Of a DNA stretch of 50,922 nucleotides, positions 2,771 through 8,372 are shown piece after piece. This stretch comes from a bacterium (GTDB lineage Bacteria; Latescibacterota; Latescibacteria; Latescibacterales; Latescibacteraceae). The notes under the pieces were generated by a model. That model saw nothing but the letters and a program-made list of their open reading frames with translations, did not search any database and was not told the DNA's origin. Made by a program: the position numbers and the translations under genes. The stretch spans positions 1-50,922 of the forward strand of contig JAJFUH010000057.1 of assembly GCA_021372535.1 (NCBI GenBank). The letters run 5' to 3'. Each line of letters begins with the position of its first letter. The first letter of the stretch is position 1.

Positions 2771-5656
2771 ATGCAGAAGATAAAAATGTTTTTTGGGAAG
2801 CGAGTCGCCTTTCTATCGACAGTTCTTATGTTTACGCTGGGTATGGCCGCGGCTCAGAGCCCTGTCGTAAATATCACCAGCGGTATATCATACGGGACGC
2901 TTTCAGATGCTATAAATGCACTTAATGATGGCGAAACCCTCGAAATACGGTCGTCGGGAACATACCCCTGTCCGGGGCTCACCATTAAAAAGAATAATGT
3001 TACACTACGCGGTGCGAATGGAGTAACCGCCATTCTCAACGGTGATTTCAATTGGAACGGATGTTGCCTTAAAATCGAAGGCAACGGAGTAAACCTCAGT
3101 AATCTTGATATCATCAGGGCTCTCGATATTGTAAAAGCGGCCGGGGTAAACAATCTTGTTCTGAACAATCTGCGTATTAACAACGCCAATGGCAATGGAG
3201 TGCTTCTTGACGGGATTACCGGCATATCCATTTCCACTCTTGCGTTTTATCAGGTGAACGGTTCGGCTGTCAACATAAAGAATTCCGATTCGGTATCCAT
3301 CAGCGATGTCACTGCCGCGAATTATGGCACGATCAACAAATGCATTGAGATTACCGGAACCACTGATATAACCATCAACCGGGCATTTCTGGGAAGTTGG
3401 AACAGGAATATGGTTCTCAGCCAGTGCACCGGAGTGACGATAACCGGCCTCGATATGGTATACGGTAATTACGGATTGAGTCTCGATTCCTGTCCCGGAA
3501 CGGTAATGGACAGTATTGACAGCGAGAACATAATCTATACGAATATAGCCATCAACACCTCAAACAACTGCGTAATACGGAACGGTACGCTTCAGCCGCA
3601 AAGCAGAGAGGCTATAGCACTCAGCAATGCATCAGGAACGAATATTCTGGACATGCGGATGCTGTGCAGAGGAGGTGCAACCAGCGGCGTCACTGTAACC
3701 AATTCTCCCAGTACGGTTATCCGGAGATGCGAGATTAAAAACGGCGGGTATGACGGCGTCACCGTGACGGCTTCTGCAGGATGCACGATAGAAAATACCC
3801 TTCTCTGCTCTAATCGCAAGGGTATTCTGCTTACAAGCTCGAGCAACTCCACCCTTATAAAGAACAATACGGTCATCAACAACCTGGATTCCGGAATCAG
3901 TCTTGGTTCGGTCAACGGTGTAAACATTCGTAACAATATTGTCGTAAATAACGGGAAAACGTACTGGACGTGGGGCATCCGGTGTGAGTGGGGAACCGTC
4001 CAGAATCTCTCGCTTACTTACAACGATATCTGGAATAACCGCGAAAATTATTCGAACTGCATACCCGGTACCGGTTCTCTCTCGGTTGATCCCCTCCTTG
4101 TGGATGGGTGCGCCGATGCACATCTGCGATCCGGTTCCCCCTGTATCGATACCGGTGATCCCGACGACCCCGTAGGCGATGAACCATCTCCAAACGGCGG
4201 AAGGATCAATATCGGTGTATATGGAGGGACTGTGGATGCGACAACGACGGCGCAGGTTGAAGTCACCATCGCTGAAGCCGCCGCACGGGGCTGGGTGAAC
4301 CTGTATTGCTATCCCTGGCAGGATATCCAATATGTTCAAATCAGCGGCCTTCCCGGTGCAGCGAACACCATTCTGCCGCCATGGTGCGGTTTCTGGGTGA
4401 TTGTGAATCAGGATGTCGATATCGTGTTTCCCCACAATCCAACCGCGCAGATTCCCTCTCCGGGCAACGTCATGTCCAAAGAGCTGCTTAACAGTTGGTA
4501 TTATCTGATTTCCGTTCCGCTCAATCCGGTTAACAAAGATGTAAACGCGGTTTTCGGCGACGATCTCGGTGATGGACTTTATGACGGCTCCACCGGTCAG
4601 AAATGGCGCGTCTCGAAATGGAATGTGGACAGTGGAGATTATACCCGGTATACCGGCACCGGCAGTTTCCCCGAGCTCATTCCGGGGCGTGGCGTCTGGA
4701 TCCGTCAGATTTATGACGAAACCAGGACGATCACGGTTTCCGGCAATCCTGTTTCCAATACCAGTGATTACTCACTCAAATTGAAAAGCACCGGCGGGGA
4801 AACCTATCATATGATCGGCAACCCGTATCCGTACAACATCGACTGGCGTTCTGTAAAAGTACGCGTTCCTATGACAGACGCTCTTCAGGCGGGAAAGATT
4901 GCCGCTCCGGTTGATTTCAATGATATCCGGACATGGGATGTCGAATTGAAGCTCTCCACTACCAACGGCATTTTCGTAGATGCCAATAATAAGGCTGGCG
5001 TGATTCTTTCTGAGGATGATTACAGCTATATGCTGAATGCAGTGGACATGGAGCCGTTTGCGGATGATTATATTCGATTGTATCTGCTCGATCCGGATGA
5101 CCAGGACAGAAACAAGCGTTCTTACGACTACCGCGGCCCGTTTGAAAATTCCTGCGTTTGGAATGTCGTACTCTCGACTTCGATGGACGAGGCACAGGCC
5201 ATACTCGATCTCGGCAACCTGAGTTCCATTCCCGATTTGTACACGGCGACGCTGACAGCTCCTGACCTGACTGTGACGGCTTTGACCGGAGATGTCCATA
5301 TTCCTGTTACGCTGTCAAGTAATGCGGATGTCGTATACCGGCTCACCCTTACACGTGCCGAACCGCTGGCCGTTGAGGAGGAGAGTATTCCACGGGCATT
5401 CGGAATAGTCGGGGCAAGTCCGAATCCGTTCAATCCCGCCACGACTATCGAATATATCACCGATCATCCCGGTAATGTACAGCTTTCCGTCTATAATATT
5501 GCAGGACAGAAAATTGCTGTATTGGCTGAGGGAATCATGAATGCCGGGAAACACTCCGTAACATGGTATGCCGCAGGCCAGGGCTCCGGAGTCTATTTTG
5601 TGATTCTTGAGACATCGGAAAAGCGGGATGTCCGGAAAGTAATGCTGATGCGATAG
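2771..5656 (+). CDS. Secreted right-handed beta-helix protein with T9SS/FlgD-like C-terminal sorting domain
   Basis: A 961-aa exported protein. Residues 1-29 form a signal peptide (basic start, hydrophobic core, AAA-Q cut). Residues ~30-450 are a parallel beta-helix of the pectate-lyase/NosD type: many ~22-residue turns rich in Asn with alternating V/I, such as GVNNLVLNNLRINNANGNG and NSTLIKNNTVINN. A 'SVDPLLVDG...SPCIDTGDP' block closes the helix, as in DUF1565/choice-of-anchor proteins. Residues ~490-860 are a beta-rich region of unknown type. Residues 883-961 carry the SPNPFNPATTIEY motif, VYNIAGQ and GVYFVILE of Por-secretion (FlgD-Ig-like) sorting domains, so it probably reaches the cell surface. 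No catalytic residues can be named; polysaccharide binding or lysis is possible. A GAGG sequence lies ~7 bases before the ATG. Confidence 0.85.
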   Translation: MQKIKMFFGKRVAFLSTVLMFTLGMAAAQSPVVNITSGISYGTLSDAINALNDGETLEIRSSGTYPCPGLTIKKNNVTLRGANGVTAILNGDFNWNGCCLKIEGNGVNLSNLDIIRALDIVKAAGVNNLVLNNLRINNANGNGVLLDGITGISISTLAFYQVNGSAVNIKNSDSVSISDVTAANYGTINKCIEITGTTDITINRAFLGSWNRNMVLSQCTGVTITGLDMVYGNYGLSLDSCPGTVMDSIDSENIIYTNIAINTSNNCVIRNGTLQPQSREAIALSNASGTNILDMRMLCRGGATSGVTVTNSPSTVIRRCEIKNGGYDGVTVTASAGCTIENTLLCSNRKGILLTSSSNSTLIKNNTVINNLDSGISLGSVNGVNIRNNIVVNNGKTYWTWGIRCEWGTVQNLSLTYNDIWNNRENYSNCIPGTGSLSVDPLLVDGCADAHLRSGSPCIDTGDPDDPVGDEPSPNGGRINIGVYGGTVDATTTAQVEVTIAEAAARGWVNLYCYPWQDIQYVQISGLPGAANTILPPWCGFWVIVNQDVDIVFPHNPTAQIPSPGNVMSKELLNSWYYLISVPLNPVNKDVNAVFGDDLGDGLYDGSTGQKWRVSKWNVDSGDYTRYTGTGSFPELIPGRGVWIRQIYDETRTITVSGNPVSNTSDYSLKLKSTGGETYHMIGNPYPYNIDWRSVKVRVPMTDALQAGKIAAPVDFNDIRTWDVELKLSTTNGIFVDANNKAGVILSEDDYSYMLNAVDMEPFADDYIRLYLLDPDDQDRNKRSYDYRGPFENSCVWNVVLSTSMDEAQAILDLGNLSSIPDLYTATLTAPDLTVTALTGDVHIPVTLSSNADVVYRLTLTRAEPLAVEEESIPRAFGIVGASPNPFNPATTIEYITDHPGNVQLSVYNIAGQKIAVLAEGIMNAGKHSVTWYAAGQGSGVYFVILETSEKRDVRKVMLMR

Positions 5657-5737
5657 GAACCGGACTCCTGTGACGATTGAAACATAGAACCATGGACAGT
5701 AAACAATCAGGAAAATGAACCAGTATAAGGAGAAAAT

Positions 5738-5914
5738 ATGGAATCAGGGAATCGGAAAACAGTCAACCGCAGGGAAATCATAAAAAAGGCGACGAAAACC
5801 GGAGTTTTCATTATCCCGACCATGATGACATTCGATGTACAGGATCTCCATGCAAAGGCTTCCGGTGAAAACAGTTTCCCAACTGAACCGCAGAAACCTG
5901 CAGCAAGCAAGTAA
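5738..5914 (+). CDS. 58-aa peptide, candidate precursor of the PqqD/HprK-like/NTP_transf_5 cassette
   Basis: A short open frame with a strong ribosome-binding site (AAGGAGA at 5727-5733, four bases before the ATG). The peptide is basic at the N-terminus with RREIIKKA (residues 11-18), has a hydrophobic centre with FIIPTMMTF (24-32), then DVQDLHAKASG and a Pro/Glu/Lys-rich tail. Small proteins with an RRxxLKKA...P-[VIT]-[IM]-[LM]-T pattern are, from general knowledge, often found next to PqqD-like and HPr-kinase-like genes, which is the arrangement here (PqqD gene begins ~220 bases downstream). I infer that it is the substrate peptide of the cassette. The RR and the A-x-A-like HAKA could also suggest a Tat-type leader, but the hydrophobic stretch is short and broken by proline. 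No Cys, so no lanthionine or sactipeptide chemistry. Confidence 0.65.
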   Translation: MESGNRKTVNRREIIKKATKTGVFIIPTMMTFDVQDLHAKASGENSFPTEPQKPAASK

Positions 5915-6130
5915 TTACGCCATTTTTGGCGGAGATTCGTTCGCTGCCTCTCCCTTCAACGGGAAATCAGATTTTTAAATCGATTTCCCGTTCATCGCCT
6001 CTAGCTCATTTATGCAGGGAAGCAGGTTTTCGTAGGATTTTCAGGTGCGGACCTTCTTTAAAACACAAGGAGACCCGATTCTGCATCCCCGGATTTATCT
6101 GGAATATCTTAAGTGGAGAAACTCACTGTC

Positions 6131-6385
6131 ATGCACACGATGACGCTTCATAAATCCGATGGAATCGAACGCATAGAGGTGGACGACGGCGTTGTTCTCA
6201 AGCATGAGGGACATATCCATGTTCTCAACCAGACCGCCGTACGGATTTTTGATCTGGTCGATGGTTCGCGGATGCATGAAACAATCGTCAGCATAATGAT
6301 CGAAGAGAACAACGGGACTGATGTTAGAGGGTACGTTATGGACTTCATTCAGGCTCTTATGAAGGCGAATCTCATCCACGAGTAG
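6131..6385 (+). CDS. PqqD-like peptide-binding protein (RiPP recognition element)
   Basis: An 84-aa protein with the PqqD-family pattern: a short beta-hairpin part (IERIEVDDGVVLKHEG), the conserved HVLNQTAVRIFDLVDGS segment (Asn-[QE]-T/A-A...hhph-h-D/E-G), then two helices. PqqD-like domains hold the leader of a ribosomally made peptide and present it to modifying enzymes. ATG at 6131 is chosen; a GTG at 6113 would add six residues, but the GGAG at 6115-6118 sits at a usable distance only for the ATG. It is followed by the HPr-kinase-like gene after 8 bp. The 198 bases between the peptide gene and this gene contain another AAGGAG (6067-6072) without a good start codon after it. Family confident; partner peptide inferred. 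Confidence 0.85.
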   Translation: MHTMTLHKSDGIERIEVDDGVVLKHEGHIHVLNQTAVRIFDLVDGSRMHETIVSIMIEENNGTDVRGYVMDFIQALMKANLIHE

Positions 6386-6393
6386 AAATCGTA

Positions 6394-7221
6394 ATGCGCA
6401 TATCACTCGCAATCGGCGATAAATCGTTGCTCTTAACGGGCAATGCCGACGATTATTTCGATACGCTCTCCAATTTATTTGCTGCCTGGCGTCAGGAACG
6501 GGACGAGAGGGACCGGAGCGACGCATATCATTTGACTATCACGAAAAAGGGCAATACCTATCAGATAGCCGTGCCCGACTCCAACCTCATCGAGGCGGAA
6601 GCCGGCTCACTGGTAAGCGTTATCGAGCAGATCATTACGTGTGCCGCGCGTGAAAGCATGCAGGACTACCTGCAGCTGCATGCAGCGACTCTTGACTCGA
6701 AAGGCGACGGCTTCACCATTGCCGGACCGCACGGTGCGGGGAAAACGACGCTTGCTTTGACAGCACTCTCATGCGGATGTACCGCTCTCAGCGATGAAAT
6801 AACCGTGATACGGAAGGCAAATCTCGCGCTGGGTTTTCCCCGGCCTTTTCGTGTACGGCCCGGTATACTGGAGTTGCATCCATCTGTTATCCCATCCTGC
6901 ATACCGTCCCTGCTGTCGACCGATAATATCACACACCTTCTCTTTTCGATTCCATCTTTGGGGTTCTACAGGCCCGAAACCCGCATTCGTCATATCTTTT
7001 TTCCGGTGAGAAGGTCCGGCGGTACCGAAGTGCAGCCTCTGACACAGCGTGAAACACTCGAACGACTTCTTCCGCAGGGTTTTAACATATATCAGCGGCC
7101 TGACGAGTTCATGCATGTTCTTATCGAACTCGTTCGTATGACCGAATCGCATGAAATCCGTTATCATGACCACTGGCATGCGATACAAACCATTCAGCAG
7201 ATGATTCACGGTTCGTCATGA
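6394..7221 (+). CDS. HPr-kinase-like P-loop protein of a peptide-modification cassette
   Basis: A 275-aa protein with the core of HPr kinase/phosphorylase relatives: LQLHAATL (93-100), a Walker A GPHGAGKTT (111-119), then ALSDE (131-135) as the second metal/nucleotide motif. It lacks the N-terminal domain of true HprK and no PTS genes are near, so it is not a carbon-catabolite HprK. Relatives of this class ('HprK-related kinase') occur in lasso-peptide and other PqqD-containing clusters, where some phosphorylate the precursor peptide. It starts 8 bp after the PqqD-like gene, and its stop overlaps the next start by 4 bp, so the three are translationally coupled. Role as peptide kinase is inference. 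Confidence 0.8.
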   Translation: MRISLAIGDKSLLLTGNADDYFDTLSNLFAAWRQERDERDRSDAYHLTITKKGNTYQIAVPDSNLIEAEAGSLVSVIEQIITCAARESMQDYLQLHAATLDSKGDGFTIAGPHGAGKTTLALTALSCGCTALSDEITVIRKANLALGFPRPFRVRPGILELHPSVIPSCIPSLLSTDNITHLLFSIPSLGFYRPETRIRHIFFPVRRSGGTEVQPLTQRETLERLLPQGFNIYQRPDEFMHVLIELVRMTESHEIRYHDHWHAIQTIQQMIHGSS

Positions 7222-8372
7222 TATCGTATGAATCGATTCTCGGTTATCTCCTTTCGGTAACGGGCGTACCGGGGAGCCTCCCGCCATCACGCGTATGGGA
7301 CACGATACCCGTTCTTGCTGAACGGCTGCGGATATCGTTCTTTCTTGCCGGACTGATTGGCGAATGCCCACATCCGGATATACCCGAAAAGGTAGTGAAA
7401 AAGTATCGGTGTGACCTGTCTGCCAACATCGCCCGAAACGCCGTGCTGTCCCTCCAGATCCGTTCGATCGCGCAACTTTTCAGTACGGCAGGCATTCCCT
7501 GCATGTTTTTCAAAGGAGGGGCCTGCCTGGTTCGCGGTCTTTACCCGAGCGGCTGGCGGTTCATGACGGATATTGATATCCTCGTGCATCGGAAAGACCG
7601 TGATCGATCGCTGCACCTGCTCGAAACGGCCGGATATTGTGAAAAATCCGATGGAGTCGAACAGGTACACCACCTGCCACCGCTTTCTCATCCCATTCAC
7701 CCCGGTGAAGTTGAATTGCACACTACCCCGTACCCTCTGGGAGAGGCAGACGAACGGTCCCTGAATGAACTCTGGTCTCATGCGGAGATCGTTCTTTTCA
7801 TGGAAACGCCGATTCTCGTACCCGGTCCGACCGATCATGTCTGGATCATGGTGCGCACCGATACCATCGAACGGGTCACCATTCCCCGGTTACCGGATAT
7901 CATCGAGTATTCGCTGATTCGCGATTGTAAACTCACCATCGATCATGACGTCCTCGTTCAAAGGGCCGAACATGACCGGATGCCCAATCTCATCAGAGCG
8001 TTCTTCTATGGAGTGGAATCGTTTGCAGATGGGAATGATACTCGCAGTCAACATGATTCCGAGCTGCTCCGTTGGGAGGAATCGAGCAGGATCATTCTTC
8101 GCAAAGAGCTGCGGTGCGATTGCTGGCATTCCTCACGACGGCGCTGGCTTGCAGTACGGTTTCTTCCGCCGGGAGGATTGAAATCAAGAACTGTGTTCGG
8201 TATCTGGCTTGCGAAGGAAATCGTTTCAACCGACCGATTTCGTCCCGGCACCTTTCGCGAGAAGCCGCTTTTTCTGAAAGCATTGATTTATATGAAGCTC
8301 GGGATTCTGTTTGTCGTTTCCGGGTTCGAATATCTTGTTTTTTATCGTATGACACACAAAAAACACGACTGA
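7218..8372 (+). CDS. NTP_transf_5-type nucleotidyltransferase family protein
   Basis: A 384-aa protein whose ATG overlaps the kinase stop (ATGA at 7218). The middle has the signature of uncharacterised nucleotidyltransferases (Pfam NTP_transf_5): GIPCMFFKGGACL then RFMTDIDILV, where the two Asp of DxD are the expected metal ligands of the polymerase-beta fold. It is preceded by a helical region and followed by a ~200-residue helical region, usual for the family. In lasso-peptide clusters such proteins sit next to HprK-like kinases; the biochemical role is unsettled, with nucleotidyl transfer to peptide or small molecule as an option. It is the last gene of the cassette. From 8373 to 8640 I see no supported gene. 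Confidence 0.75.
   Translation: MISYESILGYLLSVTGVPGSLPPSRVWDTIPVLAERLRISFFLAGLIGECPHPDIPEKVVKKYRCDLSANIARNAVLSLQIRSIAQLFSTAGIPCMFFKGGACLVRGLYPSGWRFMTDIDILVHRKDRDRSLHLLETAGYCEKSDGVEQVHHLPPLSHPIHPGEVELHTTPYPLGEADERSLNELWSHAEIVLFMETPILVPGPTDHVWIMVRTDTIERVTIPRLPDIIEYSLIRDCKLTIDHDVLVQRAEHDRMPNLIRAFFYGVESFADGNDTRSQHDSELLRWEESSRIILRKELRCDCWHSSRRRWLAVRFLPPGGLKSRTVFGIWLAKEIVSTDRFRPGTFREKPLFLKALIYMKLGILFVVSGFEYLVFYRMTHKKHD

Follow-up and report, generated by a model that had tools for sequence, protein, structure and literature searches.

Does the 58-residue open reading frame (ORF) directly ahead of a PqqD gene in this bacterial DNA encode a real peptide, and if so, what would the neighboring enzymes do with it? 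The window (the whole stretch of DNA analyzed, 50,922 nucleotides) had been given a sequence-only reading, which proposed that the ORF encodes a leader-containing precursor for the PqqD, kinase, and nucleotidyltransferase (NTase) genes that follow. We find that it is probably the precursor gene of an RRE/kinase/nucleotidyltransferase pathway, one that would work most like the pathway of the linear polyphosphorylated peptides (LPPs).

The open reading frame and its start signals

5738..5914, + strand: gene for the 58-aa precursor peptide (homologs, purifying selection)
5727..5733, + strand: Shine-Dalgarno sequence AAGGAGA (sequence, frequency)
5958..5992, + strand: hairpin with an 11 + 4 bp stem in the interval between the precursor and PqqD genes (z -3.15 for 5915-6064)

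The ORF starts with ATG, separated from AAGGAGA by a spacer of 4 bases. This signal had been rated as stronger than that of most large genes. AAGGAG is rare in the upstream Shine-Dalgarno range: of the 1989 ATGs that the two strands contain, only 6 have it there. The precursor ORF accounts for one of these six, and long ORFs of 256, 261, and 298 aa account for three more. RREIIKKA, FIIPTMMTF, and HAKASG all occur in the peptide as first described, Cys is absent, and the next gene is that for PqqD (6113-6385). The description of one Ser/Thr-rich segment was off, as Ser and Thr are scattered along the peptide and form no clear segment of this kind. No family in Pfam or NCBIfam matched the peptide. 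The strong hairpin that follows has no T-run, and no terminator pattern was matched after the precursor gene; it is possibly an attenuator or an RNA stabilizer.

Homologs, selection, and gene company

Among 60 relatives, the sole confident match to the window peptide (E 7.5e-10, 51% identity) was in genome G003, which belongs to a different genus of the same family. Apart from the window's own genome, G003 alone in this family has a close kinase relative. The G003 homolog reads MENKNQEVKNTSRRKLLKKAGKAAVFVVPAILTFKVTDLHATASGAPAAPQRW, and the gene order is peptide, NTP_transf_5, PqqD, kinase. A profile of these two sequences weakly matched an ORF on a contig of the window's own genome (C47), beside the second kinase of that genome. 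It reads MSDDSLKKIDAGKRAFLKKVAAATVFTVPVVQSFSMKGLSTPDAEAASDKKVAAPPVSPI, a diverged relative of the window peptide, in the order PqqD, kinase, peptide, glycosyltransferase/TPR, NTP_transf_5. A longer and more distant relative in genome G029 (SSRRSFIKQGLKGAALLPYVIPAVESVF, then a D/S/N-rich tail) lies directly before PqqD and kinase genes, with the NTase further along. Four sets, all from one phylum, pair such a peptide with PqqD, a kinase, and NTP_transf_5.

That 5738-5914 is a chance ORF or a remnant, as its short length and lack of a family match would allow, is refuted by these homologs; given their conservation in the same gene company, the third-position bias described below, and the strong Shine-Dalgarno sequence, we consider this explanation extremely improbable. 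The ORF is confirmed as a genuine gene. Loss of the ORF, or of selection on it, in relatives keeping the PqqD and kinase genes had been named as grounds for abandoning the proposal; in both G003 and C47 the peptide is present beside these genes. Conservation had been anticipated for RRxxxKKA and for particular tail residues. The former is borne out (RRKLLKKA in G003, KRAFLKKV in C47), but the tail residues are not conserved.

Between the window and G003, the three codon positions differ at 17, 14, and 34 sites over 51 codons, and at 13, 6, and 25 sites over the 35 codons of the leader. The excess of third-position differences (binomial P about 0.001) shows that purifying selection acts on the leader; the tail varies in length and sequence.

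A search of 64 genomes with a leader profile built from the four sequences turned up no additional set. The peptide was not found in the same-genus genome G001, and none was recognized in G047, which keeps PqqD, kinase, and NTase. Because profile scans of genome contigs with the NTase and kinase alignments returned no relatives, and a tblastn search of plasmids with the G003 peptide found none, the family is not traced beyond the phylum, and it is known from only four peptides.

2771..5656, + strand: secreted beta-helix protein of 961 aa, ending in a T9SS sorting tail (Pfam/NCBIfam; similarity to the G003 neighbor)

In the window and G003 alike, the gene upstream of the peptide encodes a large secreted protein with a T9SS tail (37% identity over 435 aa), and it is specifically a C-terminal region of about 340 aa that is conserved beside the G003 peptide. 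The window's genome has about 118 T9SS tails, yet the only one that the G003 protein matches well is that of 2771-5656 (E 1.7e-47; next 8e-4); among 64 genomes, only G003 has a full-length homolog of the region. The T9SS-tailed protein could belong to the unit as its fifth member, and its conservation hints at a role at the cell surface.

Leader, RRE, and candidate modification site

5765..5788, + strand: NRREIIKK in the leader (residues 10-17), a Tat-like twin-arginine motif (all four peptides have RR or KR)
5807..5824, + strand: leader F24xxP27xM29, RRE-binding motif of the YxxPxL kind (alignment; definition PMC13381572)
5852..5863, + strand: AKAS, residues 39-42, putative leader/core border with an AxA signal-peptidase-like site (ATAS in G003; PMC13381572 register)
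5864..5911, + strand: variable C-terminal tail, residues 43-58 (unlike G003 or C47)
6113..6385, + strand: PqqD-family discrete RRE (PF05402, 30.8 bits; AF2 pLDDT 89.8)

As in RRE-dependent RiPP precursors, a conserved N-terminal leader is joined to a variable C-terminus (SGENSFPTEPQKPAASK in the window vs SGAPAAPQRW in G003), and an RRE protein is encoded alongside (PF05402; fold match to TbiB1 with its leader). Together with the homologs and their shared gene company, this upholds the proposal of a leader-containing precursor, and the 58-residue product very probably serves as the starting material for a small modified peptide.

The motif recognized by discrete RREs is [Y/W]xxPx[hydrophobic] (PMC13381572). 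All four leaders contain [F/Y]xxPx[hydrophobic], with F in the first position in the window, G003, and C47 and Y in G029; Y also occupies it in the peptides of genomes G011 and G008 described below. In an AlphaFold2 prediction built on 12 natural sequences, the nearest folds to the window PqqD were TbiB1 with leader (5v1v, 5v1u), PqqD (5sxy), and TfuB1 with leader (6jx3); LppB (9x8z) and PbaB1 (9x90) are further matches of the PqqD profile. The window PqqD is thereby predicted to fold like the lasso and LPP RREs.

LppB holds its leader through D70, which forms a hydrogen bond to the Tyr, and N33, which fixes the Pro in place (PMC13381572). The equivalent of N33 is retained (N39 in the window, invariant across the PqqD alignment). 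The D70 column holds Y74 in the window, V in G003, and, by ungapped counting where the aligner places a gap, M in C47; these are the three FxxP sets. It is D (one E) in 16 other PqqD domains, including TbiB1 and those beside YxxP peptides, so the Asp is lost in 3 of 3 Phe-leader sets vs 0 of 16 others. This would show the leader residue and the RRE pocket changing together, as expected of a cognate pair. Because the sets are so few (four peptides, one phylum), the co-change could also reflect shared ancestry of the three FxxP sets.

LppA is cleaved after T-1, with its Pro at position -13 and its phosphorylated Ser at +3 (PMC13381572). Ser42 of the window peptide lies at Pro+15, with the same spacing in G003, in the same register as the phosphorylated Ser3 of LppA. 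By this analogy, Ser42 at the leader/core border is our best guess for the modification site, and it stays a guess rather than a fact because C47 (Ser at Pro+19) and G029 do not keep the Pro+15 spacing. Phosphorylation of a C-terminal Ser, as in paeninodin, was ruled out, as that Ser is not conserved. The sequence-only reading had placed a Ser/Thr/Lys/Asp-directed modification in the tail; this is not supported, as the tail is not conserved between the window and G003.

Kinase, nucleotidyltransferase, and proposed pathway

6394..7221, + strand: HprK-like kinase, Walker A GPHGAGKT, H96/K117/D134 invariant (TIGR04352, 54.6 bits; alignment)
7218..8372, + strand: nucleotidyltransferase, D118xD120 invariant (PF14907, 98.6 bits; alignment)

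The kinase and NTase genes overlap by 4 bp. Published lasso kinases require a His-Lys-Asp-Asp motif (PMC9266682). In the window kinase Walker A is intact, and H96, K117, and D134 are invariant in eight relatives; its score with TIGR04352 (HprK_rel_A) is 54.6 bits vs the curated cut-off of 200, which the kinase scores do not reach. Kinase relatives in family f8 have no adjoining PqqD and were set aside. A sequence search for solved structures of kinase or NTase relatives found none.

We take as established the conserved gene and its linkage, the predicted RRE fold, the intact kinase and NTase motifs, and the leader motif with its matching RRE changes. The chemistry and export that follow are what we infer from them. 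Quite probably, the ORF product is a precursor that is matured into a linear phosphorylated RiPP in the manner of the LPPs. The PqqD-like RRE would take up the leader segment VFIIPTM as an added beta-strand, its two pockets receiving F24 and M29 and its N39 (LppB N33) holding P27. It would then offer the border between leader and core to the HprK-like kinase for phosphorylation of Ser42, once or several times. The PF14907 enzyme would attach a nucleotide or sugar-phosphate onto the phosphate. Finally, the leader would be cut off after A39 or A41, and a linear peptide of 17-19 residues exported, possibly via Tat. Neither a leader peptidase nor an exporter gene was recognized beside the window set, and no transporter was recognized among the flanking genes scanned there.

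A true lasso peptide precursor, with its cyclase and leader peptidase encoded elsewhere in the genome, is a very unlikely alternative. Paeninodin and pseudomycoidin clusters do contain a YxxP-like leader, a discrete RRE, an HprK-like kinase, and an NTase (PMC9266682), but no asparagine-synthetase-like cyclase or B2 was recognized among the ORFs of the four loci, the annotated genes on either side include neither a macrolactam synthetase nor a B2 peptidase, and the tail SGAPAAPQRW of G003 offers no acidic residue for ring closure.

A Tat-like start to the leader

Could the peptide instead be mainly a small Tat-exported protein, with the enzymes acting elsewhere or linked only incidentally? RRxxLKK would then be the signal, VFIIPTMMTF the hydrophobic core, and AKA|S the signal-peptidase site. 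The likeness of RRxxxKKA plus AxA to a Tat signal is a point absent from the sequence-only reading. RR (KR in C47) and AxA recur in all four peptides, and positions 1-14 of the leader profile hit the N-termini of large Tat-like proteins from the phylum, e.g., MNRREFIKQTAVATVAMPSLLRAQA. The G003 peptide scores 12.9 bits with TIGR01409, comparable to the 12.2 and 15.4 bits of two Tat-like DUF362 proteins from the genome, and 19.8 bits with TIGR02811, a model of small Tat targets; the genomes also encode TatC. However, no score attains the curated cut-off (16.7 for TIGR01409), and the window peptide has no match among the NCBIfam Tat models. The hydrophobic stretch is only 11-12 residues, preceded by Lys and followed by Asp/Lys. 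Tat export alone also leaves unexplained the conserved FxxP, the linkage to RRE, kinase, and NTase in four arrangements, and the RRE co-change. We therefore regard this explanation as unlikely.

The Tat and RRE readings could coexist. A tentative and rather doubtful extension is that the leader is a RiPP leader and a Tat signal at once, with the RRE doubling as a Tat proofreading chaperone, and that FxxP with D70-less RREs is a third leader code beside YxxP and WxxP. The RRE, bound to FxxP in the hydrophobic core, would hold the precursor in the cytoplasm until the kinase and nucleotidyltransferase finish, and would then release it for Tat export and AxA cleavage. A literature search of a limited collection gave no clear precedent for a RiPP precursor with a Tat leader. 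The Tat-like leader offers a testable answer to how such peptides exit the cell, and the changed leader residue with its changed RRE pocket is a natural test of how RREs choose their precursors.

Other PqqD loci in related genomes

The third PqqD locus of the window's own genome (L102, G000:C179, 2234-5474) combines radical SAM, HprK-like, and NTP_transf_5 genes, with WecA-like and AAA genes close by. Same-genus genome G001 (L094, G001:C135, 4853-7559) has an archaeal-type signal peptidase (TIGR02228, 3.5e-10) with HprK-like, PqqD, radical SAM, and ABC transporter genes, a set resembling an LPP/radical-SAM hybrid. No precursor was recognized at either locus. Cys-Pro-rich repeat peptides with the leader YVKPVVETL (L043:2607-2840 in G011; L054:1322-1642 in G008) adjoin a radical SAM-PqqD fusion, an HprK-like kinase, and, in G011 only, an NTase; they look like another RiPP precursor family. 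Radical SAM, PqqD, and kinase sets were considered as members of the same family as the window set and rejected, as the peptide there is this different, Cys-Pro-rich one.

Comparison with known systems

Pairs of HprK_rel_A (TIGR04352) and NTP_transf_5, e.g., on proteobacterial plasmids, share the kinase and NTase families of the window set. They differ in that no [YFW]xxP peptide resembling those of the window, G003, C47, and G029 was recognized beside the plasmid pairs, and in that the window kinase is far below the HprK_rel_A cut-off. Small Tat targets (TIGR02811, TIGR01409) share the twin-arginine start and AxA, but our peptides score below the cut-offs, embed an RRE motif, and keep other gene company.

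The phosphorylated lasso peptides paeninodin, pseudomycoidin, and BsfA are alike in the RRE-assisted, HprK-like phosphorylation of a precursor Ser, which is the C-terminal Ser or Ser3, and the NTase of pseudomycoidin is PsmN (PMC9266682, PMC10368454). Unlike them, the window set has no recognized cyclase or B2 and no conserved C-terminal Ser.

The closest likeness is to the LPPs, described in 2026 from the Paenibacillus alginolyticus lpp cluster and reported as restricted to Bacillota (PMC13381572). The window set shares with them a discrete RRE, an HprK-like kinase, and an NTP transferase with no cyclase, as well as a conserved leader, a variable tail, and the [aromatic]xxPx[hydrophobic] motif. 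LPP clusters sit in capsule loci, which the G029 set (L052) recalls: its peptide has a D/S/N/G-rich tail, and it lies near polysaccharide export genes (Wza/Wzc-like). Against the LPP motif YxxPxVLxHQxIxFETxxS, the window sequence FIIPTMMTFDVQDLHAKAS matches the P and S register but not the Y or the HQ/FET, so that HQxIxFET is absent, FxxP replaces YxxP, and the RRE lacks the D70 equivalent. LPP clusters also have an SpI (SipW-like) leader peptidase and an MsbA-like exporter, and neither was recognized beside the window set; the TIGR02228 peptidase is absent from the window's own genome and G003. In G001, an archaeal-type signal peptidase adjoins the kinase, PqqD, and radical SAM genes, as SpI does in LPP clusters. 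Because the window set departs from the LPPs in these two defining features, the motif and the SpI peptidase, we class it as an LPP variant and not as a member. Its own additions are a Tat-like RRxxLKK that precedes the motif, an AxA at the putative leader/core border, and the upstream T9SS protein. An LPP-like pathway outside Bacillota is the best reading of the window set, which extends cyclase-less kinase/nucleotidyltransferase RiPPs to an unrelated phylum in a small four-gene example. What is novel relative to the known LPPs is its different recognition code, its export-signal-like start, and its occurrence outside Bacillota.
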